The notes beneath the pieces are model-generated. The model had not been told where the DNA came from. It worked only from the letters and a program-made list of their open reading frames with translations, and did not search any database. From NCBI GenBank assembly GCA_024637295.1, contig JAGXFL010000013.1:62001-126000 (forward strand): a stretch of DNA of 64,000 bases, given 5' to 3'. This DNA comes from Sulfuricurvum sp. (GTDB lineage Bacteria > Campylobacterota > Campylobacteria > Campylobacterales > Sulfurimonadaceae). Shown here piece by piece: positions 5,937 through 63,457 of this stretch. Each line of letters starts with the position of its first letter. The first letter of the stretch is position 1. The position numbers and the translations under genes were made by a program.

Positions 5937-5943
5937 GGATGGC

Positions 5944-5949
5944 ATTATA
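5944..5949 (-). promoter_or_regulatory. -10 box of a probably leaderless miaA transcript
   Basis: On the minus strand the bases read TATAAT, a perfect sigma-70 -10 hexamer. Seven bases separate it from the ATG at 5936, so the start of transcription would coincide with the start codon. No ribosome binding site fits between them. Confidence 0.5.
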
Positions 5950-6013
5950 CCCTACAGGCGGAGGATAACCTTTATGAGGCACTATGTAGAGGTATCACAA
6001 AGAGAAATTACGC

Positions 6014-6019
6014 TAAAAT
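6014..6019 (+). promoter_or_regulatory. -10 box upstream of mqnP
   Basis: TAAAAT in the only gap between the divergent miaA and mqnP genes, about 35 bases before the GTG start at 6054. No good -35 box is seen, which is usual in Campylobacterota. An AAGGAAG ribosome site lies between it and the gene. Confidence 0.45.
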
Positions 6020-6053
6020 AGAACCCAACGATAAAAAATAAATAAGGAAGCCT

Positions 6054-7432: not shown

Positions 7433-7433
7433 T

Positions 7434-7943: not shown

Positions 7944-7960
7944 TTATAAGCTTTAAAAGG

Positions 7961-7966
7961 TATAAT
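7961..7966 (+). promoter_or_regulatory. -10 box of the tRNA-Arg gene
   Basis: A perfect TATAAT lies 18 bases before the mature 5' end of the tRNA at 7985, in the right place for a start of transcription near 7973 and a short leader removed by RNase P. Confidence 0.6.
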
Positions 7967-7984
7967 TTCGTTCTCTTTAAATGT

Positions 7985-8061
7985 GCGTCCGTAGCTCAGC
8001 TGGATAGAGCACCGGTTTGCGGTACCGGCGGTCAGGGATTCGAATTCCTTCGGGCGCACCA
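7985..8061 (+). tRNA. tRNA-Arg, anticodon GCG
   Basis: A full 77-base cloverleaf with encoded CCA. The acceptor GCGTCCG pairs with CGGGCGC (one G-U). The D arm is GCTC/GAGC around AGCTGGATA. The anticodon stem is CCGGT/ACCGG with loop TTGCGGT, which puts GCG at positions 34-36. The variable loop has five bases. The T arm is AGGGA/TCCTT around TTCGAAT. GCG reads the arginine codons CGC and, by wobble, CGU. Most bacteria read these with an A34 (inosine) tRNA, so the G34 form is worth noting. The gene stands alone. Confidence 0.95.
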
Positions 8062-8123
8062 CTTACTTTCCTCAAAACACTCAATATATCTTTTCTAAGC
8101 TTAAACTAAAAAACTGTATTAAA

Positions 8124-8198
8124 TGGTTAAATTTTAATCAATATTTAGAACCATTACAGACGATAATTGGCTAAAATTATTTCAGATAAAAATATCTC
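8124..8198 (+). promoter_or_regulatory. narK promoter with shared palindrome, -10 box and start-site dyad
   Basis: The palindrome TGGTTAAATTTTAATCA lies at 8124-8140 (centre 8132). A -10 box TAAAAT begins at 8172, exactly 40 bases after the centre. A second dyad, AGAT-N6-ATCT, lies at 8184-8197 (centre 8190.5) around the expected start of transcription. The same three elements with the same spacing occur before the nrtA-like gene and before cobA. The palindrome is at about -52, which suits an activator. The regulator is unknown; the half-site spacing (TGRT-N9-ATCA) does not fit FNR. Confidence 0.75.
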
Positions 8199-8212
8199 AA
8201 ATAGGAGTACGA

Positions 8213-9490
8213 ATGAAATTCGCCGATTTAAAAAAAGAGGGACACTGGCCTACGCTGTTTTCTGCCTTCTTGTATTTTGACTTTAGTTTTATGATGTGGA
8301 CGATGCTAGGACCGCTTGCTACTGAGATTGGAGAGAGCCTCTCCTCTCGCGGGTTTACGATGAGTGACGATCAGCAAGCAACACTGCTTGCCATCCCTGT
8401 TTTGGCGGGAGCAATCTTGCGCTTAGTATTAGGGATTTTTGTGGATAAAATCGGACCTAAGAAAACGGCTGTCGCAGCACAGATCATTGTTATCGCGACC
8501 CTCTTTATGGCCTACATGAGTGCTGATTCCATTACCTACAATCAGCTGTTAGTTGTAGCGTTAGGTCTTGGTTTTGCCGGTGCATCGTTTGCCGTTGCCC
8601 TCCCACAAGCGGGTCAATGGTATCCGCCACGCCTTCAGGGAACGGTATTGGGAATTGCAGGTGCCGGTAACATCGGTGTGGTGATTGACTTTCTCTTTGC
8701 TCCTAAAATCGCAGAGCTTTGGGGATGGCCTTCTGTTTTCTTGGTTGGCGGCGTTCTTTCATTGCTTGTCCTCATTGCGTATATGTTTATGGCAAAAGAT
8801 GCCCCTGTATCGGTTTACAAACCCAATCCTAAAAAATTGGGCGATTACCTGAAGCTGATGCGTGATCGTGACACATGGTGGTTTAACCTCTTTTATGCCG
8901 TCTCTTTCGGTGGATTTATCGGATTCGCCAACTACATGAAAGTTTATTTGATGAACACCTACCAAGCCGATATGTCTGCGTTTGGAACTGATATCATGAA
9001 CGAGAGCAATGTCAAAGTCGTCGCAGGGTATTTCGGTGCGCTTTGTATCTTTGCAGGGGCAATGCTGCGTCCAGTAGGTGGTGCGGTTGCAGATAAGATG
9101 GGCGGCGTTAAATCACTTTATGTCTTTTTTAGTATGATCGTCGTACTTTCCAGTCTCAGTGCCTTTATCGCATTATCGTTTTGGGCTGCCATCTTGGTGA
9201 TGTTTCTCATCATGGCAAATCTCGGAATGGCAAACGGTGCAGTGTTCCAGCTCGTGCCACAGCGTTTTGGCAAAGACATCGGTGTTATGACGGGCCTTAT
9301 TGGTATGGCAGGTGGTTTTGGTGGAACAGCGTTGATCAAAACCTTCGGCTGGTCGCAAGGGGTATTTGATGGCTATACGGCAGGCTTTGTTATTTTTGCA
9401 GGTATGGTTGTCGTGGCCCTATTGGGAATCAGTTTGGTCAAGACACGTTGGAGAACCACGTGGGGTGCCACTGCTGGTGGGCGGATCTAA
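8213..9490 (+). CDS. NarK-type nitrate/nitrite MFS transporter
   Basis: A 425-residue major facilitator protein with about 12 hydrophobic segments. The start ATG follows AGGAG by about eight bases. The family signature between helices 2 and 3 is visible as GIFVDKIGPKKT (near residue 80), and GLGFAGASFAVALPQAGQWY with GAGNIGVV carries the Gly-rich nitrate signature regions of the NarK/NasA group. NarK proteins carry nitrate inward, with protons or in exchange for nitrite. Being first in a nitrate assimilation cluster and sharing its promoter design with the nrtA-like and cobA operons points to assimilatory uptake. It appears monocistronic. It partly duplicates the ABC importer downstream, perhaps at a different affinity. 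Confidence 0.9.
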   Translation: MKFADLKKEGHWPTLFSAFLYFDFSFMMWTMLGPLATEIGESLSSRGFTMSDDQQATLLAIPVLAGAILRLVLGIFVDKIGPKKTAVAAQIIVIATLFMAYMSADSITYNQLLVVALGLGFAGASFAVALPQAGQWYPPRLQGTVLGIAGAGNIGVVIDFLFAPKIAELWGWPSVFLVGGVLSLLVLIAYMFMAKDAPVSVYKPNPKKLGDYLKLMRDRDTWWFNLFYAVSFGGFIGFANYMKVYLMNTYQADMSAFGTDIMNESNVKVVAGYFGALCIFAGAMLRPVGGAVADKMGGVKSLYVFFSMIVVLSSLSAFIALSFWAAILVMFLIMANLGMANGAVFQLVPQRFGKDIGVMTGLIGMAGGFGGTALIKTFGWSQGVFDGYTAGFVIFAGMVVVALLGISLVKTRWRTTWGATAGGRI

Positions 9491-9524
9491 TCACCGATAC
9501 CTTCAAAATTTAGCTTCTCCTCAA

Positions 9525-9551
9525 GATGTGGCATCTTTGGATGCCATCATC
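9525..9551 (+). terminator. hairpin after narK, weak terminator candidate
   Basis: TGGCATC (9529-9535) pairs with GATGCCA (9540-9546) around a TTTG loop. The stem extends by GATG/CATC past a one-base bulge. There is no clear T-run afterwards, only a pyrimidine-rich stretch, so intrinsic termination is uncertain. It may instead be an mRNA-stabilising 3' hairpin. Confidence 0.35.
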
Positions 9552-9631
9552 GATAACTTTCCTTTCATCTCTTTGTCCACAAAATCACCTACGTCTTGAA
9601 CATTTATGCAAATTTTAAATAAGAAACATAT

Positions 9632-9709
9632 AACTGATTAATATTTAATCAGTTAGTTGCATATATAGTCGATTATTTAGATTACAATTATTTCAGATTT
9701 TTTAATCTT
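9632..9709 (+). promoter_or_regulatory. nrtA-operon promoter with shared palindrome, -10 box and start-site dyad
   Basis: The best copy of the operator is a 10-bp inverted repeat AACTGATTAA / TTAATCAGTT with a 3-base spacer (9632-9654, centre 9643). TACAAT begins at 9683, 40 bases after the centre. The dyad AGAT-N6-ATCT spans 9695-9708 (centre 9701.5), 58.5 bases after the operator centre. The 16 bases from the -10 box through CAGAT differ from the narK copy at only one position. Confidence 0.8.
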
Positions 9710-9725
9710 AAATAGGAGTTTCAAT

Positions 9726-11006
9726 ATGAAAAGTTTACATGTTCTTGGAAAAAGTGTTTTACTGCTCTCTCTTGCAGCATCGGTTGCTATGTCAGCAGTT
9801 GTTGAGAAAAAAGATCTCAAGATAGGGTTTATACCACTTACGGATTGTGCGGCACTCGTAATCGCAAAAGAAAAGGGTTTCTTTGCGAAACATGGTCTCA
9901 ATGTAGAGTTGAGCAAAGAAGCATCATGGGCAAACGTCCGTGACAAGATGACGGTTGGTGAGCTTGACGCATCACACATGCTTGCGGCAATGCCGATCGC
10001 ATCCACACTGGGTGTCGGAAGTACGAAAAAAGAGATGTTGGCCCTCATGGCATTGGGACAAAACGGGGATGCGATTACCGTATCGAACAAAATGTACGAT
10101 GCGATGATGGCAGCCGATTCTGCTGCTACTAAAAAAGGTTCCGCAGCAGCACTCAAAAAAGTGATTGCGGCAAAAACAATGGGTGTTCCTGAGTTTGGTA
10201 TGACGTTCCCTACGGGGACACACAACTACCATATCCGCTATTGGATGGGTGCAGGTGGAGTGAATCCCGATAGTGATATATCACTCAAAGTCGTTCCACC
10301 ACCGCAGATGGTGGCGAACATGACCGCAGGAAACATCGATGGATTTTGTGTAGGTGAACCGTGGAATCAACGTGCGGTCATGGGCAATGTTGGCAAAACA
10401 CTTATTACGGGGTATCAACTCTGGCAAGACGGTCCTGAAAAAGTACTCGGTGTTCAAAAAGCATTTGCCCAAAAATATCCTGAGACGACCAAGCAAATGA
10501 TCGAAGCAGTCATCGAAGCGGGTGTATGGCTTGATGCTTCATGGGAAAACCGTAAAGAGGCATCCGTGATCCTCTCAAATAAATCGTACGTCAATGCACC
10601 TAAAGACGTTATCGACAACTCGATGACGGGAACGTTTATGTTTACCAATGGCGTGAGCACTCCAATGCCAAACTTTAACCGTTTTGCAAAAGGCGGTGCT
10701 TTGTATCCGTACTACTCCCATGGATTGTGGCAAGTGACTCAAATGATCCGCTGGGGCCAATTGGATAAACCTGTCGACATGAAAAAGACAGTTGAGAGCG
10801 TTTATCGTCCCGATTTATTTGCAGCCGCTGCTAAAGAGGTGAAATACCCCCTTCCTGCATCAGGATGGAAAAAAGAGTCCAAATTTATCGATGGTGTGAC
10901 GTTTGATCCGAACAAATCGGTGGATTATATTTTTAATGCTCCGATTAAATCGCCAAAAATGACCAAAGAAGCACTTGCTAAAGTGAATAAATGGAAAGTC
11001 AAATAA
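9726..11006 (+). CDS. nrtA: ABC transporter nitrate-binding protein, NrtA-like
   Basis: A 426-residue periplasmic solute-binding protein with a Sec signal peptide ending near residue 22 (SVAMSA). It lacks the lipobox Cys that anchors cyanobacterial NrtA. LKIGFIPLTDCAALVIAKEK opens the mature domain. HNYHIRYWMGAGGVNPDSD and PPPQMVANMTAGNIDGFCVG with GEPWN are close to the NrtA/CmpA family signatures. The family binds nitrate (NrtA) or bicarbonate (CmpA); nitrate is favoured by the nitrate and nitrite reductase genes that follow. It heads an operon with the permease, ATPase and a porin. The ribosome site is AGGAG, about 9 bases before the ATG. Confidence 0.9.
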   Translation: MKSLHVLGKSVLLLSLAASVAMSAVVEKKDLKIGFIPLTDCAALVIAKEKGFFAKHGLNVELSKEASWANVRDKMTVGELDASHMLAAMPIASTLGVGSTKKEMLALMALGQNGDAITVSNKMYDAMMAADSAATKKGSAAALKKVIAAKTMGVPEFGMTFPTGTHNYHIRYWMGAGGVNPDSDISLKVVPPPQMVANMTAGNIDGFCVGEPWNQRAVMGNVGKTLITGYQLWQDGPEKVLGVQKAFAQKYPETTKQMIEAVIEAGVWLDASWENRKEASVILSNKSYVNAPKDVIDNSMTGTFMFTNGVSTPMPNFNRFAKGGALYPYYSHGLWQVTQMIRWGQLDKPVDMKKTVESVYRPDLFAAAAKEVKYPLPASGWKKESKFIDGVTFDPNKSVDYIFNAPIKSPKMTKEALAKVNKWKVK

Positions 11007-11022
11007 GTAAAAGGAGGCATTT

Positions 11023-11805
11023 ATGCTCTTAAGAACCATCAACATCGTTGCGTTACCGACACTGCTTTTTGGTGTCCTCATCGCTGTATGGTCAACGGTA
11101 GCCAACCAAATTCCAGGCTTCCCACCGCCTATGGAAGTGTGGAACGAATTGCTCGTTGTTCTATCAGATCCGATGTATGACAACGGTGCCGGAGATCAAG
11201 GGATTGCATTGCAACTCCTTAGTTCACTCAAGCGGGTATTTGGTGGATTTGCACTGGCAATCGCTGTGGGGATTCCTGTAGGTTTGCTGATCGGAATGTC
11301 CAAAATGGCGCAAACCGCCTTCAATCCGTACATTCAGATCCTCAAACCGGTTTCCCCGCTTGCGTGGTTACCGTTGGCGCTGTTTGTGTTCAAAGATGTG
11401 GATATGACGGCGATCTTCGTCATCTTTATCACTTCTATCTGGCCGATTATCATCAATACGGCTTTGGGAGTACGCAGTGTAAGTGAAGATTACCTCAATG
11501 TCGCCAAAGTATTGCAACTCACCGCATTTGAGAAAGTGTTTCAGATCATTCTTCCTGTTGCGGTGCCCTTTATCTTTACGGGGATGCGTTTGTCATTGGG
11601 GATTGCATGGTTGGTTATCGTCGCGGCTGAGATGCTCACTGGCGGTCTAGGGATCGGGTTTTGGATTTGGGATGAGTACAACAATCTCAACTATTCCCAT
11701 ATTATCATCGGGATCATTCTCATAGGCGTCGTCGGGTATATCCTCGACACCATTATGGGCTTTATCGCCGATCATTTTGATTATCGAAAGCGAGGCCGCG
11801 TATGA
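11023..11805 (+). CDS. nrtB: ABC transporter permease, NrtB-like
   Basis: A 260-residue inner-membrane permease of the NitT/TauT family with about six hydrophobic segments. The ATPase-contact EAA loop is visible around residues 155-175 (LNVAKVLQLTAFEKVFQIIL), and the conserved segment GMRLSLGIAWLVIVAAEML follows. The ATG comes after AAAGGAGG with good spacing, 16 bases downstream of the binding-protein gene. Its end overlaps the ATPase start by four bases. It forms the channel of the nitrate importer, probably as a homodimer since only one permease gene is present. Confidence 0.92.
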   Translation: MLLRTINIVALPTLLFGVLIAVWSTVANQIPGFPPPMEVWNELLVVLSDPMYDNGAGDQGIALQLLSSLKRVFGGFALAIAVGIPVGLLIGMSKMAQTAFNPYIQILKPVSPLAWLPLALFVFKDVDMTAIFVIFITSIWPIIINTALGVRSVSEDYLNVAKVLQLTAFEKVFQIILPVAVPFIFTGMRLSLGIAWLVIVAAEMLTGGLGIGFWIWDEYNNLNYSHIIIGIILIGVVGYILDTIMGFIADHFDYRKRGRV

Positions 11806-12599
11806 GTGCAAAACCTTTTTTAAACATCGATCATGTCGATAAGATTTTCCCGCTCGGACGTGGCAAAGAGTACGTAGCGTTGCGCGATGTTAAACTTGAA
11901 ATTCGTGAAAATGAGATTGTCTCCATCATCGGGCACTCAGGATGTGGTAAATCGACCCTGCTTAATATGATTGCAGGGCTTGATACCATATCTGAGGGTG
12001 TGATTTTACTCGAAGACCGAGAGATTAATGCCCCAGGCCCTGAGCGTGCAGTGGTGTTTCAAAACCATTCACTTCTGCCTTGGCTTACGGTATATCAAAA
12101 CATCGAGATGGCGGTGAGAAAAGTGCGTGATGATCTCAATGCCAAAGAGGTCAAAGAGCACGTTATGAAATACATAGACCTCGTCAATCTCGATCACGCA
12201 AAAGACAAATATCCCGGTGAAATCAGCGGAGGGATGAAGCAGCGTGTCGGAATCGCACGAGCACTCTCCATCGAGCCAAAAGTGCTTTTGATGGATGAGC
12301 CGTTTGGGGCACTCGACTCACTGACCCGTGCTAATTTGCAGGATCATTTGATGCGTATACAGATGCAAACGGGTAACACCGTCATTATCATCACCCATGA
12401 TGTCGATGAAGCGGTTTTGTTAAGCGATCGCGTCATCATGATGACCAATGGACCGGAGGCGACTATCGGAGAGATATTGGAAGTGAACCTTCCACGTCCA
12501 CGAGAGCGTTTGACTTTACAGCATAATGAAGAGTACCTACGGTGTCGTGGTGCCATTGTGGAGTTTTTATACTCTAAGTTCGCTAAACACGAAGACTAA
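11802..12599 (+). CDS. nrtD: ABC transporter ATP-binding protein, NrtD-like
   Basis: A 265-residue ATPase of the NitT/TauT importers. Walker A is GHSGCGKST (near residue 44), the signature is ISGGMKQRVGIARAL (near 145), Walker B is VLLMDEPFGALD, and the switch His follows in IIITHDVDEA. The protein lacks the extra C-terminal binding-protein-like domain found in cyanobacterial NrtC, so it resembles NrtD and probably works as a homodimer. It overlaps nrtB by ATGA and is followed 26 bases later by a porin gene. Powers nitrate uptake from the cytoplasmic face. Confidence 0.92.
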   Translation: MSAKPFLNIDHVDKIFPLGRGKEYVALRDVKLEIRENEIVSIIGHSGCGKSTLLNMIAGLDTISEGVILLEDREINAPGPERAVVFQNHSLLPWLTVYQNIEMAVRKVRDDLNAKEVKEHVMKYIDLVNLDHAKDKYPGEISGGMKQRVGIARALSIEPKVLLMDEPFGALDSLTRANLQDHLMRIQMQTGNTVIIITHDVDEAVLLSDRVIMMTNGPEATIGEILEVNLPRPRERLTLQHNEEYLRCRGAIVEFLYSKFAKHED

Positions 12600-12625
12600 A
12601 AAACAAAATACATAAGGAAATAGTT

Positions 12626-13876
12626 ATGAAAAAAATTACATTATCAGCAGTTGCCATTTTATCATTGGCCAGTACCTTTACTACAACGCTTAGTGCGGGG
12701 GATGACTTTACCCTCTTTAGCAAGGCAAAAGTCAACGGCGAAGTACGTCCTCGTTATGAATTTGTGGATGATGAGTCAAATACTCGTGATAAAGCCAATG
12801 CATACACCGTTCGTGCAACGATTGGTCTTGAAACAACCTTACTAGGAATTGATGGGTTAAGTATGAAAGTGGATGGAACGACCGTACAAACACTTGGAGG
12901 CACTGGATATGAAGATGCTACTGCTGACGCTAATTTACGCTATGACCGTGTAGCTGATCCAGAGCAAACACGCTTTACCCAAGGGTATCTACAGTATAAG
13001 ATGGGTGCAACTACTCTAAAAGCAGGGCGACAGATTGTCAACTTGGACAACCAGCGTTTCATCGGTTCGGTTGACTGGAGACAAATGCCGCAAAGTCTCG
13101 ATGCGGTATCCGTTACGAATACCTCTATTGCAGGATTGAGTCTATACGGTGCCTATGTGTACGATTACGCGACTGTCTTTAAAGAGGCGACTCAGCACAG
13201 TGAATCTGTTCTTTTGAATGGAAGCTACAAAGTCAACGATATGCTCAAAGTCACAGCCTATGACTATATGCTCTCGCTTGAAAAAAATCAGTTTGCAGCA
13301 GACACTATAGGGCTAGCCCTCAGTGGTGATATTCCAGCAGGAGATGTAAAAATAGGTTACCGTGCTGAATATGCAAAACAAGGTGATGCAACTTTTAAAA
13401 CAACCATGACGAATCTCAAAACCCAAAATGACGCAACCTATTACGATATTGAAGCAACGGCATCAATGATGGGTATTAGCGTAGGTGCCGGATATGAGTT
13501 ATTGAGCGGAACAACAGGAAGTGATGGAAAAACAAAATTCCAAACACCATTGGCAACATTGCATAAGTTTAACGGAACTGCTGATAAATTTCTCACAACG
13601 CCAACAGGCGGGATCGCGGATACCAGTGTTAGTCTAGGTTACGGCGCAAAAGATCTAGGCAATGCGATGATTACCTATCACGACTATAAAACGGATGTAG
13701 CAATGTCTGGGAAAAGTGATCTTGGAAGTGAATTAGATCTTCAATACGCTAATGCGATTCCAGGAGTAAAAGGTCTCAATGGTCTTATTAAAGCGGCTTT
13801 TTATGATGCTGGAGATGTTGCAACATTTACCAGTGATAAAACGGTAGTATGGGCACAAGTCGGTTATAAGTTCTAG
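12626..13876 (+). CDS. outer-membrane porin in the nitrate uptake operon
   Basis: A 416-residue beta-barrel protein with a signal peptide ending near residue 24 (TTTLSAG). Long alternating hydrophobic strands follow, and the C-terminal residue is Phe (WAQVGYKF), the usual barrel-assembly signal. It resembles the OprD/Campylobacterota porins of about 400 residues. It begins 26 bases after the ABC ATPase gene with its own AAGGAA ribosome site, so it is most likely cotranscribed with the nitrate importer and may be a nitrate-favouring channel; substrate choice is inferred from position only. A short GC-rich hairpin follows the stop. Confidence 0.82.
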   Translation: MKKITLSAVAILSLASTFTTTLSAGDDFTLFSKAKVNGEVRPRYEFVDDESNTRDKANAYTVRATIGLETTLLGIDGLSMKVDGTTVQTLGGTGYEDATADANLRYDRVADPEQTRFTQGYLQYKMGATTLKAGRQIVNLDNQRFIGSVDWRQMPQSLDAVSVTNTSIAGLSLYGAYVYDYATVFKEATQHSESVLLNGSYKVNDMLKVTAYDYMLSLEKNQFAADTIGLALSGDIPAGDVKIGYRAEYAKQGDATFKTTMTNLKTQNDATYYDIEATASMMGISVGAGYELLSGTTGSDGKTKFQTPLATLHKFNGTADKFLTTPTGGIADTSVSLGYGAKDLGNAMITYHDYKTDVAMSGKSDLGSELDLQYANAIPGVKGLNGLIKAAFYDAGDVATFTSDKTVVWAQVGYKF

Positions 13877-13881
13877 TATTC

Positions 13882-14457
13882 TCACCCCTTTGGGGTGGTT
13901 AGTCCAGTAAAAAACGCTTGGCACATAGCGATAATTTTCTCTTGTCGGCTTTTGCCTACGGGCTCGTTTTGACGGATTAAATGTACCTTGTCTATCAAGT
14001 CATGAATACCGTTTGGAATAGTGGCTGTCAAATATTTTCGCAGTGCCGAACTCACAGCAGGAGCCCGTCCGGCAGTATTGATCCCCACACACAGATCCCC
14101 CTGCACGATCAGTGCCGGAAAAATGAAACTGCACAATGTGGGAGAATCGACACAATTGACGGGGATTTTGGCTGCAATGCACTTTTCGTATATCTTTTTT
14201 TGTTCATCGATATTATCTAAAGCCGCAATGACTAAAAAACGCTTTTCCAAATCGTTTGGATTATAGTTTCGCTCGATGAAGATCATCGGATAGGTTTTTG
14301 AAAGCATCTGAATTTCCTCATGGACATGGGGAGCGATGACGGTAAGCTTGGGGGAAAACTTAATAAGCTGCTCGATTTTGCGTAATGCTATCTCACCTGC
14401 ACCGATCATCAAACAATCTTGATCTTTCAAATCAACAAACATTGGAAACAGTGCCAT
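13882..14457 (-). CDS. precorrin-2 dehydrogenase / sirohydrochlorin ferrochelatase (CysG N-terminal type)
   Basis: A 191-residue Met8p/CysG-N type enzyme. It oxidises precorrin-2 to sirohydrochlorin with NAD and may insert iron, making siroheme for NirA. The nucleotide-binding loop is MIGAGEIALRKIEQL (near residue 17), and NCVDSPTLCSFIFPA carries the conserved Asp needed for both activities. AAAGGA precedes the ATG by about seven bases. The gene points away from cobA, across the intergenic region that holds the shared operator. A TATTGT at 14484-14479 on this strand could be its -10 box, partly next to the palindrome, so one regulator could control both directions. Confidence 0.88.
   Translation of the reverse strand: MALFPMFVDLKDQDCLMIGAGEIALRKIEQLIKFSPKLTVIAPHVHEEIQMLSKTYPMIFIERNYNPNDLEKRFLVIAALDNIDEQKKIYEKCIAAKIPVNCVDSPTLCSFIFPALIVQGDLCVGINTAGRAPAVSSALRKYLTATIPNGIHDLIDKVHLIRQNEPVGKSRQEKIIAMCQAFFTGLTTPKG
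13883..13897. terminator. short hairpin between convergent porin and siroheme genes
   Basis: CACCCC pairs with GGGGTG around TTT. It sits just after the porin stop and inside the last codons of the opposite gene. No T-run follows on either strand, so its terminator activity is doubtful. A similar CACCC/GGGTG stem with a proper T-run ends the second porin gene at 31406. Confidence 0.35.
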
Positions 14458-14487
14458 TTTTTTATCCTTTAAACTAAGACAATAAAG

Positions 14488-14561
14488 TGATTAAAAAATA
14501 ATCACAAATTTGTTTTACCGAGTGACATTTTACACTATTATTCTTGCAGATAAAAAAGTCT
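14488..14561 (+). promoter_or_regulatory. cobA-nirA-narB promoter with shared palindrome, -10 box and start-site dyad
   Basis: The palindrome TGATTAAAAAATAATCA spans 14488-14504 (centre 14496). TATTAT begins at 14536, again exactly 40 bases after the centre. The dyad CAGAT-N6-GTCTG spans 14547-14562 with its centre at 14554.5, 58.5 bases after the operator centre. This is the third copy of the module and lies in the divergent space between the siroheme gene and cobA. Confidence 0.75.
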
Positions 14562-14586
14562 GAATAAAGATTTCAAGGAAACAATG

Positions 14587-15363
14587 ATGAACGGAAAACT
14601 CTATTTGATCGGTTGTGGTCCCGGTGATGCTGACCTGTTAACCCTCAAAGCAATCAAAACTATTTGTAAACTTGATGTTGCACTAATCGATCATCTCCTC
14701 ACGCAAGAGATCATTGATCTGATCCCACCGCAAACCAAAGTTGTTTTTGTCGGGAAAGAAAAAGGAAAACACAGCTTCCCTCAGGAACAAATCAACACTA
14801 TGATCGCTGAATATGCACACCAAGGATACAGTGTTGGCCGACTCAAATGCGGCGATCCGTACATCTTTGGGCGTGGAACGGAAGAGGCGATTTATGCGAC
14901 TTCTAAGGGAATTGAGACCGAAGTGATTCCGGGAATATCGTCGGCATTATCGGGACCTTTGTCTGTTGGAATTGCTCCGACAGCCCGTGGTGTCAGTACG
15001 GGAGTCTCGATCGTATCGGCACACTTGTCAGGTGATAGGGTCAACCTCTCATGGATTCCAATGCTTGCAGTTGGCGATCATACGACCGTAGTTTTGATGG
15101 GGCTTAGCCGAATACGCCAAATTGTCAAAGAAGCTTTGGAGCAGGGGATCGATCCTCATCTGCCTGTCGCTATTGTCTCCAATGCTACAACCTCGATCCA
15201 AAGTTCCATGGTGACCACACTTTCCCAGCTGGCTACAACGGCCAAAGGGGCACCAAAACCGGCGATCTTAGTCTTCGGCGAAGTGGTCAATCTCTCTGGA
15301 ATACTTCCAAAATACCAATATGAGACGAAGGAGGTACCGTATGACATCGCTAATGCAGGCTAA
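14587..15363 (+). CDS. cobA: uroporphyrinogen-III C-methyltransferase
   Basis: SUMT adds two methyl groups from S-adenosylmethionine to uroporphyrinogen III, giving precorrin-2, the first step of siroheme synthesis. GCGPGDADLLTLKA near the N-terminus, GRLKCGDPYIFGRG (near residue 80) and EVIPGISSAL are the conserved SUMT motifs. About 258 residues, the normal length of a stand-alone enzyme, so the CysG function is split over two genes here. ATG codons occur at 14584 and 14587; AAGGAA at 14575-14580 is better spaced for the second. Its end overlaps nirA, and it is the first gene of the cobA-nirA-narB operon. Confidence 0.93.
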   Translation: MNGKLYLIGCGPGDADLLTLKAIKTICKLDVALIDHLLTQEIIDLIPPQTKVVFVGKEKGKHSFPQEQINTMIAEYAHQGYSVGRLKCGDPYIFGRGTEEAIYATSKGIETEVIPGISSALSGPLSVGIAPTARGVSTGVSIVSAHLSGDRVNLSWIPMLAVGDHTTVVLMGLSRIRQIVKEALEQGIDPHLPVAIVSNATTSIQSSMVTTLSQLATTAKGAPKPAILVFGEVVNLSGILPKYQYETKEVPYDIANAG

Positions 15364-17251
15364 TGAAGTGCGCAGTGCCAAACGCCATAAGACCGAATCG
15401 ATCAAGGACGCTTTTAATGCGGATGAAGCCTGGGATCGTCTGATAGGTTATTCCAAAAACGGCTATGCTTCGATCAGCGAGGATGATAAAGATTTTGTCC
15501 TTAAAAGTTTCGGTATTTTTGATCGTCCTGCTACGCCTGAACGTTTTATGATCCGTGTACGGATTGCCGGAGGTGCTTTGAGTGTTGAGCAGGCTATGGC
15601 AGTCGCTTATGTCGCTAAAACATTTGGACAAGACTACATCGACCTTACTACGCGTCAACAGATCGAACTTCGTTATCTGCGAATCGAGGATATTCCTGAA
15701 GCCTTCAAACGCTTAGAAGATGTAGGACTCACCAGTTATCAGACCGGAGTCGATAATTTTCGCAATATTTTGATCGATCCGCTCGATGCGATGGCCATGG
15801 ATAACATCATCTCTTGCCGCAGTATTATGGAAGGGATTCAATCCATATTTTTGAAAAATCCTGATTGGATCACGACTCTCCCTCGTAAATTCAACATCGG
15901 CATTAACGGATCCCTTTCCAATCGATGCAATATCTTCGGTCAAGACTTCGCTCTCTCGCTCGCCCAAAAAGAGGGTGTGTACGGATTTAATCTGTTTCTA
16001 GGAGGTCGTGTCGGATCGTTAGCGCAAAATGCGGATATGTTTGTTGCACCCAGTGAAGCGGTGAAGGTATTTGTGGCGGTAGCTACCCTTTTTAAAACCT
16101 ACGGTTTCCGTGATAATCGTAATAAAAATCGTCTCAAATTTCTCATCGAAGCAGTTGGAATCCAGGAGTTTCGAGCGGCTATCGAAGAACAGCTTGGGCA
16201 CTCAATGGCGACAGCGGGAGAGTCTTTAACGGCATTGGAAGGGGGAGACCATTACGGAAAAATAACCCTTAAAGACGGTTCATTTGCCCTTTATTCTGCG
16301 GTACCTTCGGGTGTTTTTAGCGGAACAGACCTCCATTATGCGGCCCAGATCGCCCAAACACAAAACGGTACGATTCGTCTGACGATAGAACAAAACCTGA
16401 TCATCACAGGTATTCATGATGAAGAGAAGGCTCTTCAATCACCGTTATTTGTCAAATATCCAAATCGTCCTTCACCATATATGGCAAACCTCATTGCGTG
16501 TGCAGGCAGCGAACATTGTCCTTTTGGTGTTATACCGGGTAAACCCGATGCGATCACCATGAGCGAGTATCTCGAACGTACCGTACCGATCGAAGATGCC
16601 AAAATACGTCTCTATTGGTCAGCTTGTATCAAAGGATGCGGTGTACACGGTGCGGGAGATTTAGGGTTTGTCGGGTGTAAAGTAGCGAAAAACGGTAAAA
16701 CAGTGCTGGGAGTCGATATATTCATCGGGGGGACACTTAGCGGCGAGGGGGGTGAGGGTCATCTTCTTCTCAAGGGAATCGTCCTAGATGAAGCCCGTGA
16801 ATACGTAGCTCAACTGATGCGCCAATATCGTGATCTAAAAATTTCCAAAGAGAGTCTGGAGCAATTTATTCATCGTTTGCAAAATCGTTACAGTAACTAT
16901 GCGATTGGATTTTTAATGCGATGGAACCGACTTATGGAGCAAAACGCACTTGAATCTCACCTGTATTTTAATCTAAAAACGCATGGGGGAAGTCATCAAG
17001 AGGGCGATGAAATCTACGATTTTGGATTGGCACTGGTGCAATCGATAACCAAAACAAAAGCCTATGAGGTCGAAGATCCGTTTGTTGAAGGGAAAAAACC
17101 TTATAGCTTTGATAAAAAATCGTTGGATGTACGGTATGCTCCTTATAAAGAAATTATCGAAAAAATGGTTCAGCCCAATCCGATGCTTCGGTATCAAGTC
17201 TTTACAGAGATTGTAAACGATATCGAGAAAACAATCCATGAAAGCCAATAG
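15341..17251 (+). CDS. nirA: siroheme-dependent nitrite reductase (NirA type)
   Basis: Reduces nitrite to ammonium with six electrons, probably from ferredoxin, in the cytoplasm. Two ferredoxin-like/siroheme repeats are visible. The [4Fe-4S]-siroheme cysteines are in CAGSEHC (C-x5-C) and CIKGC (C-x3-C), followed by a Gly-rich GGTLSGEGGEG segment. The frame opens at 15320, but AAGGAGG at 15328-15334 fits ATG 15341, giving 636 residues. This is longer than typical NirA (about 500-560), with roughly 110 extra residues at the C-terminus that I do not recognise. A sulfite reductase is the alternative, but flanking cobA and narB favour nitrite. Confidence 0.9.
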   Translation: MTSLMQANEVRSAKRHKTESIKDAFNADEAWDRLIGYSKNGYASISEDDKDFVLKSFGIFDRPATPERFMIRVRIAGGALSVEQAMAVAYVAKTFGQDYIDLTTRQQIELRYLRIEDIPEAFKRLEDVGLTSYQTGVDNFRNILIDPLDAMAMDNIISCRSIMEGIQSIFLKNPDWITTLPRKFNIGINGSLSNRCNIFGQDFALSLAQKEGVYGFNLFLGGRVGSLAQNADMFVAPSEAVKVFVAVATLFKTYGFRDNRNKNRLKFLIEAVGIQEFRAAIEEQLGHSMATAGESLTALEGGDHYGKITLKDGSFALYSAVPSGVFSGTDLHYAAQIAQTQNGTIRLTIEQNLIITGIHDEEKALQSPLFVKYPNRPSPYMANLIACAGSEHCPFGVIPGKPDAITMSEYLERTVPIEDAKIRLYWSACIKGCGVHGAGDLGFVGCKVAKNGKTVLGVDIFIGGTLSGEGGEGHLLLKGIVLDEAREYVAQLMRQYRDLKISKESLEQFIHRLQNRYSNYAIGFLMRWNRLMEQNALESHLYFNLKTHGGSHQEGDEIYDFGLALVQSITKTKAYEVEDPFVEGKKPYSFDKKSLDVRYAPYKEIIEKMVQPNPMLRYQVFTEIVNDIEKTIHESQ

Positions 17252-56235: not shown

Positions 56236-56352
56236 GGGATAGGGCTTGAAAATCTGGATTTTTTGGTCGATATAGTGTGATTCGTACTGTTTGTATTATA
56301 CGTATACGCTACCGAGCCCTAATTGTGCAGTGCCCTAAAAATCCCTAGGAGG
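56236..56352 (+). promoter_or_regulatory. structured 5' leader of the adhesin-prepilin operon
   Basis: Two mutually exclusive pairings are possible. AGGGCT (56241-56246) can pair with AGCCCT (56315-56320), closing a 68-base loop. Alternatively GGGAT-AGGGC (56236-56245) can pair with GCCCT-AAAA-ATCCC (56332-56345), which ends two bases before the AGGAGG ribosome site (56347-56352). Switching between them could open or mask translation of the 1655-residue protein. CGATAT at about 56268 resembles a sigma-28 -10 element. If transcription starts there, the 5' arm would be lost. The rest of the 298-base gap shows no gene. Confidence 0.35.
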
Positions 56353-56357
56353 ATGAA

Positions 56358-59300
56358 ATGAAATCTTTTAAACTGTTTTCACGGCTGATGGCTGTATTTG
56401 GGATACTGATAATGATGTCTGCATCTGCTTTTGCTGATACTGAAAATAATGACAACTGTTCACAAAAAGAACTGATTTCTGCAATGAATAATAAAACAGG
56501 TAGTTACAGTAATACTACGTCAGGGCAAGTTTCTGATGGAGATGACGATTATTATTATTTCACGGTAACACAAACAGGGCAGTTGTCAGTCTCATACACT
56601 TCAAATGCCAATTCAGACTTGTACATACAAATAGGTGGCACGTGTTTGACCTCTGCTACGCGATATGTAAACAATGCTAAAAGTTATACGGGAACATTGT
56701 CGGTGACAGCGGGTCAAACTGTTTTTGTGAGAATCGTCGATAATTCAGGCTCTAAATCTCCAAATTACACTTTAGCACTATCGTATGCTCCACCACCATC
56801 AGCGGATTTGGGGATTACTAAAACTGTGAGTAATGCAGCACCTAATCCCGGGGATACAGTTACGTTTACGCTGACAGGGATTAATAATGGTCCTACAGCA
56901 TCGCAAATAACGATGACAGATACGCTTCCCGCAGGATACACACTGGGGACAGTTACTGAATCTATCAGCAATTTTAGCTGTAGTAACGTAGGTCTTGCGG
57001 TTACCTGTAGTGGAACGCACAGTTTTAATGCCGGAGATACAGCGGTTGTAACGATAGCTGCAACGGTGCCTGCGGGAAGCAATACCAATACGGCATCGAT
57101 TACCTCTAATAACGGTGTTACCGATAATGTTGCCGGGAATAATTCATCGTCAGTCACGGTGAGTACGGTAGCAGCAGCCCCTATCATTACGGCAGGACAG
57201 ACTTTTAACGCTCCGGTTAATTTTGACCTTGGACTTATTGTCGGCACGGTAGCGACAACTGGGGGAATACCGACAGGATTTACGATCTTGAGCGGGAACA
57301 GTTCAGGATATTTTACGATTGACAGCAGCGGACATATCATTGTCCCAAGTCAAACAACCATAGGAGCAAGTGGAACGGTTTATACCCTTGGTATCAGGGC
57401 TACGAATGCTACGGGAAGTGATGACAAGAACGTTACGATAAATGTGACAGATACTCCTGTAGTGGCAGCCAACTACCGAGATTTTACCCTTCGTAAACAG
57501 ATGTATCTAAAAGGAAATATGAAGACAATCGGAAATACGGTTCTGGTGGCTCCTACTGGCACGCCTAATTGTTCTACCTATACTAATGGCGCTTATCTTA
57601 CAAACTCAACAGCAGCCAATGGGGATACGACCTTATGCGGATACAGTGTCGATGGGACACAGTTGAACAGCACGACCTCCGAGCTTGCACTTCCTGCAGG
57701 GGCTAAGGTAGTATGGGCAGGATTGTATTGGCAAGGGATGATGAAAACGGCTATTGACACCAATATGATCGTTAAAATACGAAAAGATAATGGTTCATAC
57801 GTTGATATTGCACCCAATTATCTCAATTATGCTGATAGCGGATACAACTACGATAGCTCAAATGGGATCAGTTACTCTGCTGTGACCAATATTACCTATT
57901 TATTTGGTCAAGATAAATGGAATGAGGGTAATTATACAGTAGCGGGTATTCCGGTAATTGAAGATGGAAAGGGAAGTGGGCTAGGAACGTATGGTGCATG
58001 GAGTCTAGTCGCTATCTATGAAGATTCTGTGGATGTATTTCGCAGTTTTTCAGTCTTTGACGGATGGAAAAAGGTGACCAGTTCTGCGGATGCGATTATC
58101 CCAATCAGCGGGTTTTATACACCAAACCGTGCATTAAGTTCCAGTGCTGCAAAAGTGTCTGTTTTCGCAGCAGAAGGGGATCTGCCTTATACAGGAGATC
58201 AGTTAATCACTAAAAACTACAATACAAATACCAATGTAGCGTTGCAAACGCTTACAAGTAACAGTTTCAATTCTCAAATTACGGGGGGTGGAGTACGTAC
58301 TCCAAATGCGACCAATAACTTTGGGATCGATATTCAATCGTTTGATATAGGAACTTTGTTAAAACCGAAGCAAACCGATATGACGTTTACGTTTACCTCT
58401 AGTTTAGATGTCTATTGGCCATCAATGATTGCCCTATCTACGGAGCTGGTTGCACCACAATTGTGTTATGACTATTCGTTTAAACAAGACGGCCATTATC
58501 TTAAGGCAGATAACAACGGAACACAGCTTCCAATGATGAGTGGAATCATCAGTGATTCTACAATTGACACTTCAATCTATGTACGTAGTAATGAAGCGGA
58601 TATTTTAGCTCAAGGGATCTCTTTTTACAGTGATGTCAACGATTCCGTCTTCCAGTTTATTCCCGGTACGGTTGAGACATCTAATATTAATGGTTCAAGC
58701 CTGATCCCACGTACCAATACAACAGGTGCCTGTTCGTATGATGATAATGTTACGACTCCTATAGGGTGTAGTAATGGTTCCGATATACGTATTGGAATTG
58801 GTAGAGATGCTACCGGATATTCTCGCTATGGAAACGGTTCGTTGTCAAACAGTGAATACGTGTATGCAAAATTCAGTATGGCACCTATCGGGGTTGCAGG
58901 ATTGGCAGATGTCAATCAGTCACTAGGTTTTCATCTCAATTATTATATTGTTCCAAAAACAGGGGCTAATCCTATTCCGTATAATTATGAGTTTGGAACG
59001 GATATTCCACTATGTCCTCCATCATCAGGCTATGAACCTGCATGGGGGACATTTAATGTCGCAGAGCATGGAGCAACCCTTCTTGGAAGTGGATTGCCGA
59101 TCAATAATCTTCGCACTAAGGTATCGCGCAACCCATTTGCAGTGGATGTGGTAGGCTATGGTAAAGATGGCTCCGGTAAATATACGATCAAACCGACTGC
59201 TAATATCAATACAACTTTATTGGTCGAAATTATTGATAGCGGTCCGTATCATGATGCTAATGCAACGTGTGCGAATCCATCTGCAGCGCTTTCTCAGCCT

Positions 59301-61325
59301 ATATATGTACCGGTAAGCCTATCTAATAGTGTAGCGACAGCATCGGTTCCAGTTCAAAGCACCGTATTTCATAATTTTGCGGTTCAAAACGGAGCATTTC
59401 GTATCTGGTATTTTGATGATGCTAACGGGTCATTGATCCAAAACTGGACGGCGACGACGTCTGATCCTTCCACGCGATTGAATCTGACAAGCATTAACGG
59501 TCTGTATAAAAGCGGGACACATACGGTATGTGCAACGCAATGTGCCACTTCGACATCTGTTGCTTGTTTTGACTGTATTAAAGCCAATTACGCAAAACCA
59601 TTGTGTTCACGAGATAATTTTGCCGTACGTCCGGAATCGTATGATGTACGGCTGTTTGATATAGAGCAAAATAGTACGGCAGTTGTCAAAGATGCAACTA
59701 AAATTGCTTTGTCGGAACAATATCATTACACTCCTGCATATGCAACGTCAACGAGCCGTATAAATCTTGCAGCGGGGTATAACTATCGTTATGATATTAA
59801 TGCAACAGGTCATGATACTGATTTATCGGGTGTACCTAGTTATACTCGTTACTTTAATGGAGCAACCAATCCGTATAATGCAACGATGATTTGGGAACCG
59901 ATGTCTGCTAAAACCGGATGTAATGATACGAGTGGGTTGCCGTTGACTTTTTACATGGCACATGGTCAAGTTAGTAAATTGGAGCAAAATCAATCGCAAG
60001 TGGGTGAATATCGATTGAATATCATAGATCCAACATGGACTGAAGTGGATTGGGATAGTACTTTAACGGCTCATCACCTTGCAACCAATGGATTTGATGC
60101 CGATCCTCTCGATTGTATCACCACGACGACATCAACGGTTTTGTCTGGCGGTAAAGTAGGATGTACGATCAGTACCAGTGAAGATTCTGTTACTCCTCAT
60201 ATTAATGGGTCGCAGATGTATAAAGATCACTTAGTGACGCTTAAACCGGCTAAATTTGACCTCTCTACAATCATTTACAGTATTGGGATGAATGCGACAC
60301 CGATCATAACCGGTGGAGCAGGATTTGTATACGATTCGAATCTTAGTATTACGAACGATATGCCAATGGCGGTTCGCTCTGCGGGGAGCATCAAAGCATT
60401 GGGATATGATAATGCAACTTTGAGTAATTTTGTGACGCAGTGTTATGCTGCTGATATCAATGTGTCTATTTCGCATAATGCGCCTGATGCTAACGCTACA
60501 TTTAGTTTTATAGGGCGCATTGACAGTAATGCGACCTATGATGCAACTGCTTTACCTGCACAGACGATAGGTGCAACTCAATTTGCAAAAGCAGACAATG
60601 GTGTAACTAATCCGACCATTAGACTAAATGTCAATCGGGATGTGAGAGTGCCTCAGTTACCGATTAATGTCCATTATAATGATCTGAATGTATCGTGTTC
60701 TAATCTGGCAGATTGCAATGTAAGTGCGATGTCGTTGAGTACACCGAATACAGCAACAGGAACTGATGTGATGGATTTTAATGTGAGCCATGTTTATGGA
60801 CGAGTGATCCCAAGCAATGTTCGTGTTATGGGGCTTATTGCATTTGAAACACTTGCTCGTTATGAGGCTTATATGACGCCAACACTATTAGGAACTGGGT
60901 TAATCGCTGATCCAGTAGATGCGACATGGTTTGTTAATACCCTCCATACCGAGGCAGAGTATGGAGATGCAACGGTAGGTTATGTGGATCCAACTGCTGG
61001 ATCGTCGCTTCCAACTGGAACATCATCGTATGCTGCAGGGATAGAAACGTACCGCTTTAATCCTTATACTACTCGTCAAGGATACAAAGGGCATATCAAT
61101 ACTGAGGGATGGTTGTGGTATAACACAAATGCATTAGCGTATATCGATCCCTCAGCAGGAGCTTTGAGCTGTTTGACCCATCCGTGTTTTGATATCACTT
61201 TTGGGCGATTGATCGGTAACACCGGCAGTGCAAAAACAGAATCTGAAGCGCATAAGGCAAACAAGAAGACATCAACAGGCACAGGGTGGAGCACTACGAG
61301 TGAATACGCTCCTGCAATTCGATGA
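56358..61325 (+). CDS. giant exported MshQ/DUF11-type surface protein, putative pilus-associated adhesin
   Basis: A 1655-residue exported protein with a signal peptide (cleavage after ASAFA, residue 26). Order of parts: a PPC-like beta domain (about 27-143), a DUF11 domain (about 146-270, ADLGITKTVSNAAPNPGDTV), a cadherin-like stretch (about 275-367), a large region starting NYRDFTLRKQMYLKG (about 372-700), a Cys-rich segment near 1050-1085, and a C-terminal part beginning NFAVRPESYDV (about 1088), which reads like the DUF6701 region of MshQ-type pilus proteins. No sortase or autotransporter anchor. The stop overlaps a prepilin gene, so it is probably carried or exported by a pilus-like machine. 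Function as an adhesin is inferred. Confidence 0.75.
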   Translation: MKSFKLFSRLMAVFGILIMMSASAFADTENNDNCSQKELISAMNNKTGSYSNTTSGQVSDGDDDYYYFTVTQTGQLSVSYTSNANSDLYIQIGGTCLTSATRYVNNAKSYTGTLSVTAGQTVFVRIVDNSGSKSPNYTLALSYAPPPSADLGITKTVSNAAPNPGDTVTFTLTGINNGPTASQITMTDTLPAGYTLGTVTESISNFSCSNVGLAVTCSGTHSFNAGDTAVVTIAATVPAGSNTNTASITSNNGVTDNVAGNNSSSVTVSTVAAAPIITAGQTFNAPVNFDLGLIVGTVATTGGIPTGFTILSGNSSGYFTIDSSGHIIVPSQTTIGASGTVYTLGIRATNATGSDDKNVTINVTDTPVVAANYRDFTLRKQMYLKGNMKTIGNTVLVAPTGTPNCSTYTNGAYLTNSTAANGDTTLCGYSVDGTQLNSTTSELALPAGAKVVWAGLYWQGMMKTAIDTNMIVKIRKDNGSYVDIAPNYLNYADSGYNYDSSNGISYSAVTNITYLFGQDKWNEGNYTVAGIPVIEDGKGSGLGTYGAWSLVAIYEDSVDVFRSFSVFDGWKKVTSSADAIIPISGFYTPNRALSSSAAKVSVFAAEGDLPYTGDQLITKNYNTNTNVALQTLTSNSFNSQITGGGVRTPNATNNFGIDIQSFDIGTLLKPKQTDMTFTFTSSLDVYWPSMIALSTELVAPQLCYDYSFKQDGHYLKADNNGTQLPMMSGIISDSTIDTSIYVRSNEADILAQGISFYSDVNDSVFQFIPGTVETSNINGSSLIPRTNTTGACSYDDNVTTPIGCSNGSDIRIGIGRDATGYSRYGNGSLSNSEYVYAKFSMAPIGVAGLADVNQSLGFHLNYYIVPKTGANPIPYNYEFGTDIPLCPPSSGYEPAWGTFNVAEHGATLLGSGLPINNLRTKVSRNPFAVDVVGYGKDGSGKYTIKPTANINTTLLVEIIDSGPYHDANATCANPSAALSQPIYVPVSLSNSVATASVPVQSTVFHNFAVQNGAFRIWYFDDANGSLIQNWTATTSDPSTRLNLTSINGLYKSGTHTVCATQCATSTSVACFDCIKANYAKPLCSRDNFAVRPESYDVRLFDIEQNSTAVVKDATKIALSEQYHYTPAYATSTSRINLAAGYNYRYDINATGHDTDLSGVPSYTRYFNGATNPYNATMIWEPMSAKTGCNDTSGLPLTFYMAHGQVSKLEQNQSQVGEYRLNIIDPTWTEVDWDSTLTAHHLATNGFDADPLDCITTTTSTVLSGGKVGCTISTSEDSVTPHINGSQMYKDHLVTLKPAKFDLSTIIYSIGMNATPIITGGAGFVYDSNLSITNDMPMAVRSAGSIKALGYDNATLSNFVTQCYAADINVSISHNAPDANATFSFIGRIDSNATYDATALPAQTIGATQFAKADNGVTNPTIRLNVNRDVRVPQLPINVHYNDLNVSCSNLADCNVSAMSLSTPNTATGTDVMDFNVSHVYGRVIPSNVRVMGLIAFETLARYEAYMTPTLLGTGLIADPVDATWFVNTLHTEAEYGDATVGYVDPTAGSSLPTGTSSYAAGIETYRFNPYTTRQGYKGHINTEGWLWYNTNALAYIDPSAGALSCLTHPCFDITFGRLIGNTGSAKTESEAHKANKKTSTGTGWSTTSEYAPAIR

Positions 61326-62056
61326 GTAAAGGAATGAAATTGCGTCCGGCGATGGCTATGATCGAGCTTATTTTTGCCATTGTCATTATTGCTATTACGG
61401 TCATCACTATTCCGGTCATGGTTAATATAGCAGGTGAATTAAGTAAGCGAATGATGATCGATGATGATGTCATGACACGCTTGAGCAGTCAAATGATTGA
61501 TAAATTTCAGGCACGCTGGGGTGGAGAATATACAGGTGTTGATGAAAACGACTCGACACCGATTTATATTTCAGATATCAATACTACAGCTGACTTGAGA
61601 TGTTCACGCTCTATGCCTACTTTGCCAGTAACATGGTATCGTATAAATCCTGATTCGACCGCTGAATGCAATGTAACGCAAGTACCAAAAGCGATACCAG
61701 CGGCATCTACCGTAGATGGTGGAACTGCCAATGGAAATGTTGCAGGCGGTCTTGAGATGCTTAATGCGGGTACGGAGACACTCAACGTTATTACCTCTAC
61801 AGGTCAGTCCGTTGATATCAATGCAACCTATAATGTCCGCTATGTTGACTCAACGGTTGCACTAGCTGGTAATACCGCTACGGCAGTCTGGAGACTAGGT
61901 TCGTCCGGTACTATTACGGCGGATAACGGCGGTTCTTTAGGTACAGCAGCAGCGAATAGAACCCATTTAAAGCGCGTTGTGGTTCGTTTTTGGAATTCGG
62001 CATTGAATGTTGATACGACATTGAGCTTTTTTAAATCGAACAAAGGGAGCAATTGA
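61322..62056 (+). CDS. prepilin-like protein 1 (type IV/pseudopilin)
   Basis: A 244-residue protein with a type IV prepilin N-terminus: a basic leader (MSKGMKLRPA), then MAMIELIFAIVIIAITVITI, with Glu at position +5 after the predicted cut. The residue before the cut is Ala instead of the usual Gly. The C-terminal 200 residues form a variable beta-rich domain with two Cys. It overlaps the giant protein by ATGA with no separate ribosome site, so translation is coupled. It resembles a minor pilin or large pseudopilin rather than a major subunit. Confidence 0.78.
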   Translation: MSKGMKLRPAMAMIELIFAIVIIAITVITIPVMVNIAGELSKRMMIDDDVMTRLSSQMIDKFQARWGGEYTGVDENDSTPIYISDINTTADLRCSRSMPTLPVTWYRINPDSTAECNVTQVPKAIPAASTVDGGTANGNVAGGLEMLNAGTETLNVITSTGQSVDINATYNVRYVDSTVALAGNTATAVWRLGSSGTITADNGGSLGTAAANRTHLKRVVVRFWNSALNVDTTLSFFKSNKGSN

Positions 62057-63012
62057 TGAGACCATTACGACGCGCCTTTACGATGATCGAGCTGTTGTTT
62101 GTTATTGTCATTCTTGGGATTGTCGGCGGGATTGCACTTGAAACCATACGACAGTATTATGAGGGGATCTTTCGTACCAAAACCTATACGCAGCGTATCA
62201 GCGAAGCGGATCATATATTAGATCAACTCACTAAATATTTTGAAAATGCTATTGATATGTCCATTGTCAATATGGATATGGATGCTGCGGACAATGCGCT
62301 TGCCGGGGCATGTGCAGGTGAATTGGCTGCTGAAGCCGAGAATGTGGCCCATGATTATACGACGGTATTTGTTGGAGTTGACACCGATAGTTTGCGTACA
62401 ACCGGAAGACCTGGGTGGAGTGAAACGGTACGTCCTAATCCATTTTTGGGCACATCACTCATATCCAATGATGCTAATTTTACAGCTGCTAATGATGTTA
62501 TAACCGCTTTGTACCCAGCATCCGATCTTCAAAATTCAGCAATATACAATGTAGACGCATCCTATACAGATACATGCACCCATTATTACGCGAACAATGG
62601 AAATGCATACTACACGATTCCGGTGGGAGGTGTTAACTATGGAACTAATACATTGACTCTTACGGATAATTTTGTTTCGCATGGATTTGCCTACACATCA
62701 GGGCCAAGTGCTGATAAAAAATATCTTCTTCGTACCGGGTACGCATTTAGAGTCCTAAATACAGGTGAGTTTGTGATGTTTTCGAACTTTCGGCCATGGC
62801 AAGGGCAAGCTTACAGTGGGGGTAAAAGAAGTACTTTGGGGGAAAATGTTGCCAGCTTTTATGCCGATTATAATAACACAAATTATTTTAATAGCAGAGG
62901 AACACTTTGGCGTTTAAAAGTATGTATGCGAGGGCTCGATTCCAATCTAAGCAGCAGCGATGCGGCAGCACAAGAGATCTGTCGTGAAAGGAAAGTGCAT
63001 GTACGTTACTAA
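62056..63012 (+). CDS. prepilin-like protein 2 (type IV/pseudopilin)
   Basis: About 318 residues with leader MRPLRRA and helix FTMIELLFVIVILGIVGGIA, Glu at +5, and again Ala before the cut. A TTG at 62053 is in frame, but AAGGGAG fits the ATG at 62056, which overlaps the previous stop (TGATG). At over 300 residues it is large for a pilin, like GspK- or PilW-type minor subunits that sit at the pilus tip. The C-terminus is Cys-containing (CMRGLDSNLSSSDAAAQEIC). Confidence 0.78.
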   Translation: MRPLRRAFTMIELLFVIVILGIVGGIALETIRQYYEGIFRTKTYTQRISEADHILDQLTKYFENAIDMSIVNMDMDAADNALAGACAGELAAEAENVAHDYTTVFVGVDTDSLRTTGRPGWSETVRPNPFLGTSLISNDANFTAANDVITALYPASDLQNSAIYNVDASYTDTCTHYYANNGNAYYTIPVGGVNYGTNTLTLTDNFVSHGFAYTSGPSADKKYLLRTGYAFRVLNTGEFVMFSNFRPWQGQAYSGGKRSTLGENVASFYADYNNTNYFNSRGTLWRLKVCMRGLDSNLSSSDAAAQEICRERKVHVRY

Positions 63013-63457
63013 GCGAAAAGGTTTCGCGATGATATTGGCTATATTTATTATCGTACTTGTGGCATTAGGCGGAGTATTGTTGTTAGGAAATGCATCTCTT
63101 GGAACAAAAACAGCCGGTGACAATTACTTTCGGGCCCAAGCAGAACTTCTAGTCGATAGTGCTACGGAGTTTGCCGTTATGCGGGCACAGGATTTTAATA
63201 CAACAGGTGCGAATTGTCTCAACAATGTGAATATAACGGTGCAAGATGCTTCTGGAGCAGCTGCGTACGATGTCAATGTGACGATTCAATACTCGTTTAA
63301 AGCTGCTGCACCTGTTAACAATCAATGCAACACATTGGCTACGTTAACGGGTAATCCAACCATGATGCTCATTGATACGACAGTAACAACCAATGCAGCT
63401 GCAAACTTCTCAACGGAACCGATACGTGTACATAAGAGATCTTGGCAGAAGCTATAA
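62999..63457 (+). CDS. prepilin-like protein 3 (PilX-like)
   Basis: A 152-residue protein with leader MYVTKRKG and helix FAMILAIFIIVLVALGGVLL. The cut would follow Gly, but position +5 is Leu, not Glu, as in PilX/GspK-type tip proteins. The frame opens at 62960; GAAAGGAAA fits ATG 62999 and gives a normal leader. It overlaps the end of prepilin 2 by 14 bases. Two Cys in the small C-terminal domain. It is the last gene of the adhesin-prepilin operon. Confidence 0.75.
   Translation: MYVTKRKGFAMILAIFIIVLVALGGVLLLGNASLGTKTAGDNYFRAQAELLVDSATEFAVMRAQDFNTTGANCLNNVNITVQDASGAAAYDVNVTIQYSFKAAAPVNNQCNTLATLTGNPTMMLIDTTVTTNAAANFSTEPIRVHKRSWQKL

Follow-up and report, generated by a model that had tools for sequence, protein, structure and literature searches.

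The four-gene operon studied here probably, with a chance that we put at roughly three in four, encodes the tip or priming complex of an MSHA-type pilus, the "Cts" pilus, whose genes are split: an MshQ-like giant protein and three minor pilins are encoded together and the machine is encoded elsewhere. The cassette is real, conserved and largely explained; it is not a new system but a variant of the known MSHA-type/Cts pilus. The sequence-only reading had proposed a free-standing accessory module, in which atypical prepilins carry a very large MshQ-type exported protein and rely on remote machinery. The pairing of minor pilins with such a protein and the dependence on remote machinery have held, the free-standing nature has not: the operon looks instead like one half, the conserved tip, of an MSHA-type machine that C. 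jejuni, in its own version, uses for DNA uptake.

An ORF read of the window (the whole analysed stretch of 64,000 nucleotides, G000:C6:62001-126000) verified the four ORFs (Table 1), with successive overlaps of 4, 1-4 and at most 53 bases. In the window the cassette is flanked by HPF/RecG on one side and by a response regulator on the other, and FliW lies about 17 kb away. There are no pilus machinery genes at the cassette locus. No sigma-54 promoter was found upstream of the giant gene, and promoter and terminator scans of the locus gave matches at chance level only.

Table 1. Features of the cassette (positions in the window)
Feature	Position	Strand	Basis or remark
Ribosome binding site AGGAGG of the giant gene	56347..56352	+	sequence read
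Giant exported MshQ-type protein, 1655 aa	56358..61325	+	ORF and relatives
Signal peptide MKSFKLFSRLMAVFGILIMMSASAFA of the giant	56358..56435	+	judged by eye from sequence
Variable N-terminal part of the giant, aa 27-367	56436..57458	+	DUF11 at 56805-57161
Conserved core of the giant, aa ~368-1077, no known sequence family	57459..59588	+	Ig-like beta-sandwich near aa 697-880
C-terminal part of the giant, aa 1078-1655	59589..61322	+	divergent DUF6701 (MshQ type), Ig-like chain
PP2, PilV/GspI-type minor prepilin, 244 aa, putative CtsT counterpart	61322..62056	+	
PP3, PilW/GspJ-type minor prepilin	62056..63012 (62053 alternative)	+	318 aa from ATG 62056, 319 otherwise
PP4, PilX/GspK-type minor prepilin without Glu5, 165 aa	62960..63457	+	likelier start ATG 62999, behind AAAGGAAAG

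A search of 200 genomes of the order with the single giant sequence found it in 83, and a profile search found its core in 90 of the 200; when the profile was run on 298 genomes of the phylum, the core was present in 104. Close relatives were on contigs labelled Sulfuricurvum. The order giant-V-W-X, with overlapping or abutting genes, recurred in about 40 loci of many genera, thus the claimed arrangement of a giant and three prepilins in four overlapping genes is not due to chance. A frequent context was Lon-BamD-FliW-(ProC)-giant-V-W-X-HPF (gene names in the neighbourhood comparison were assigned by eye), and the kinds of genes that flank the cassette in the window recur near other loci. In family f16 (L077, L079, L094, L105, L109) giant relatives are single or form tandems of as many as three, and no minor pilins adjoin them. 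In L085:4788-15365 two tandem giants are followed by one minor-pilin set, as if tip proteins had been duplicated for exchange.

Judged from their sequences, the three prepilins are of the ordinary minor-pilin types PilV/GspI (PP2), PilW/GspJ (PP3) and PilX/GspK (PP4). They had been called atypical, and two of them large; their sizes are, in fact, normal for V/W/X-type minor pilins. Family-wide scans assigned PP2 to PilV/GspI, PP3 to the GspJ-like TIGR02599 and PP4 to GspK, mostly with scores below the curated cut-offs. The N-terminus of PP3 matched the Pfam family N_methyl, as did 32 of the 35 members of its family. PP2 has AMAMIEL in its prepilin N-terminus, and PP4 has GFAMILAI, which, like the GspK/PilX type, lacks Glu5; weak matches to GspK were seen in 31 of 35 members of the PP4 family. 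Past the N-terminal helix no solved structural relatives of the prepilins were found. In another family a fourth, H-type pilin follows PP4, and its homologue here (E 4e-31) lies as an orphan on contig C7. Two loci (L078:5511-5936 and L083:5828-6304) contain an extra prepilin between PP3 and PP4, apparently a fusion or a partial duplicate: its N-terminal ~60 residues resemble major pilins and its C-terminal ~70 residues the end of PP3.

The first ~367 residues of the giant vary across the family. Pfam recognized the predicted DUF11 domain at aa 150-268; the PPC and cadherin-like domains that had also been proposed were below the reach of Pfam in this protein, but such domains are found in that part of the relatives, whose N-termini are mosaics of He_PIG, Big_9, cadherin-like, Calx-beta, PA14, DUF11 and PPC modules. 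The core (aa ~368-1077) is conserved within the giant family and was rightly described as being of unknown family, since none of the Pfam families matched it consistently and PDB sequences did not match at all. Its structure model was beta-rich (pLDDT 78.8), and the segment of aa ~697-880 resembled Ig-like domains of streptococcal adhesins and pilins with a middling score (Z up to 8.8, 3.0 A, 132 residues). An enzyme in the core, which had been named as a possibility that would speak against the adhesion module, was considered and rejected: Pfam and PDB sequences gave no match and the structural search returned only Ig-like or adhesin folds with middling Z values, the absence of other folds being no proof.

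The C-terminal 578 residues were modelled as a chain of Ig-like domains (pLDDT 83.5), which could be superimposed on FdeC with a Z of 9.6 (rmsd 6.5 over 289 residues). HMMER did not detect DUF6701 in the giant's own sequence, thus the proposed MshQ-like end could be confirmed only through relatives: PF20419 (DUF6701) matched 7 of 44 aligned giant C-termini (best 2.5e-23), and the family profile of the C-terminal part matched the DUF6701 protein encoded on contig C5 of the same genome (HHalign 1.2e-41, 441 columns). By these family comparisons the C-terminus of the giant belongs to the DUF6701 (MshQ-type) group. The profile of the core did not match the same C5 protein (0.13). The comparison with PilY1 can be maintained at most at the functional level, as there was no Pfam match to the PilY1/PilC domain in the giant or in its aligned relatives.

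The genome contains three clusters with an ATPase and a secretin, on contigs C3, C5 and C12. The pilin-less C3 cluster encodes PilMN, PilO, a small protein, a secretin, an AAA protein, two small proteins, an ATPase and a platform protein, and in its gene order resembles mshI-J-K-L-M-N-E-G, the first of the described msh operons (PMC4624765). It is colinear and homologous with the cts-like clusters of f11 genomes (L144, L145 and L149; of these, only L145 showed the AAA (ctsP) gene), the published order of the cts cluster being ctsRDPXEF (PMC10893306). The machinery that the operon had been predicted to borrow from elsewhere thus has a matching candidate on another contig of the genome. A strong C3-type platform was present in 88 of the 90 giant-bearing genomes among the 200, the two exceptions being incomplete (75 and 76%), and also in 61 genomes without the giant core; a C5-type platform was present in only 27 of the 90 (platform types were sorted by score with a threshold that would miss the T2SS-like C12 type, and the counts are raw genome counts, not corrected for phylogeny). 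Several Sulfurimonadaceae-like genomes have the C3-type platform only.

A second MSHA-type locus, on contig C5, is complete and includes a DUF6701 protein and prepilins of its own; its proteins are homologous to members of the cassette (HHalign 6e-34, 4e-26 and 1.2e-41). The presence of such homologues in the same cell raises the question whether the cassette is an alternative tip set for the C5 machine. We find this quite improbable: 63 of the 90 giant-bearing genomes lack a C5-type platform, C5 already has a tip set, and in this genome its extension ATPase is in two frames, by a real frameshift or an assembly error (L063 (G000:C5:40000-59000) 4476-6151, minus strand). The C12 cluster is T2SS-like with prepilins of its own, three of which are near-identical and in tandem (L065 (G000:C12:36000-55000) 7167-9303). 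A filamentous prophage is suggested by a fourth secretin gene, which has integrase-like, Zot-like and small coat-like genes as neighbours (L067 (G000:C6:140000-158000) 9477-16941, minus strand).

PilT-like ATPases and ComEC are also encoded in the genome. The former bear on another alternative, in which the minor pilins would form a pseudopilus like that of type II secretion and the giant would be its secreted cargo, not a tip protein. The pilins do resemble GspI, GspJ and GspK, and the giant does have a signal peptide, but the C3 cluster is an MSHA-type set including the AAA protein, PilT-like ATPases are at hand, and among the MSHA-type homologues complete pilus loci include DUF6701 proteins, thus we regard the pseudopilus as very unlikely. 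The cassette (on C6) and the C3 locus are physically unlinked in this genome. Because machine, probable major pilins (on C5) and cassette are on separate contigs and do not form the single cluster typical of MSHA, we did not file the cassette as an MSHA locus.

A connection with natural competence came from the neighbourhoods. In loci L116-L120 (one genus, family f11) Lon-BamD-FliW-ProC are followed by prepilins of ~98, 242 and 144 aa, and there is no giant. In C. jejuni proC is cj1076, and ctsT is cj1077 with 100 aa (PMC8308473). Because a proC gene followed by a ~98-aa prepilin fits cj1076-cj1077, we read L116-L120 as the ctsT locus and call these genomes, by gene content, C. jejuni-like. 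Profile comparison matched the CtsT-like protein with PP2 (1.2e-12, owing in part to the common prepilin helix), the second f11 prepilin with PP3 (1.2e-19, full length) and the third with PP4 (7e-18, full length), each being the best match of its row. By these matches ctsT would be the counterpart of PP2, and the next two genes those of PP3 and PP4, and the C. jejuni-like ctsT locus appears to be the same cassette minus the giant. The position of a CtsT-type prepilin after proC/fliW is shared by many relatives. The giant is kept in the sister genus (L123-L126), L121 has the pilins only, and in g46 and the Helicobacter-like genomes the cassette is absent from the place by Lon-BamD-FliW-ProC; we infer that the C. 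jejuni-like genomes lost the giant. That the prepilins belong to an already described locus had been named beforehand as an outcome that would speak against the accessory module, and this has come about in part, ctsT being a known competence gene. In the literature searched we found no paper connecting the ctsT locus with MshQ-type proteins, and none on Cj1078/Cj1079 or DUF6701.

Since the giant-less cassette appears to be the ctsT locus in C. jejuni-like genomes, PP2-PP4 are probably DNA-uptake parts in this organism too. The giant itself is not tied to uptake, as it is absent where the competence role is known. It is possible, if rather doubtful, that the operon is a pure surface-attachment tip as in MSHA, with no role in DNA uptake here, and that competence was derived in the Campylobacter lineage. 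The N-terminal mosaic of adhesin-type modules, the adhesin-like Ig folds, the description of MshQ as a putative adhesin (PMC7096442) and the lack of the giant where competence is known would all agree with this, but both the pilins and the machine have their homologues, in colinear order, in the cts system, and ComEC is present.

We return to the tip complex of the split Cts pilus, for which the following mechanism can be envisaged. Once processed by the prepilin peptidase, the three minor pilins (V/I, W/J and X/K, in role like MshD-O-P) would assemble into the priming complex, at which growth of the pilus would start; the H-type orphan on C7 may be the fourth minor pilin. The Sec pathway would export the giant, which, as MshQ and PilY1 suggest by analogy, would ride the priming complex outward to the tip. 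By its domain types and its likeness to MshQ, itself a putative adhesin only, it may act as an adhesin through its Ig-like chain and its variable N-terminal modules, which would do the gripping. The C3 cluster would be the machine, the major pilins would probably be the pair on C5 (98.3-99.4 kb), and PilT would retract the pilus. The same pilus might also take up DNA, as suggested by the link to ctsT.

A further step, which we offer as tentative, is that the giant was an ancestral part of the Campylobacter uptake pilus and was lost later: across Campylobacterales one split MSHA-type pilus would attach and take up DNA through an exchangeable giant tip, and the ~700-aa core of this tip would represent a new domain family. 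Of this pilus, C. jejuni-like species would have kept the uptake part only.

These results offer an explanation for an orphan operon whose giant is present in nearly half of the sampled Campylobacterales, and they name its probable machine. CtsT, catalogued as a putative periplasmic protein, would be identified as a minor pilin, the first of the three in an MSHA-type tip complex. Two predictions follow: transformation should require the two genes after ctsT, and a giant tip protein missing from C. jejuni-like species should be present in free-living relatives. The link between the orphan operon, the MSHA-type tip and the Campylobacter competence locus is the valuable and directly testable part of this work.

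It is instructive to compare the cassette with the systems that it resembles. In the fimU-pilV-pilW-pilX-pilY1 set of Pseudomonas aeruginosa V, W and X minor pilins are encoded with a large tip protein and the machine is elsewhere, as here; the giant, however, has no PilY1 (PilC) domain, and the H/FimU-type pilin is encoded apart. The mshB-A-C-D-O-P-Q genes of Vibrio cholerae are similar in that minor pilins adjoin a large DUF6701-type protein, and the order of the machine genes is like that from mshI to mshG. The differences are that the giant comes first here, not last, that the cassette is apart from both the machine and the major pilins, and that the conserved core of the giant was not found in the DUF6701 protein of the MSHA-type locus on C5. 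The ctsT locus and ctsRDPXEF of C. jejuni differ in that C. jejuni-like genomes have no giant, the CtsT-like protein has ~98 residues and PP2 244, and the cassette of the window is not beside FliW. The two systems share the position after FliW/ProC in related genomes, the three pairwise pilin profile matches and a colinear, homologous machine at a separate locus.
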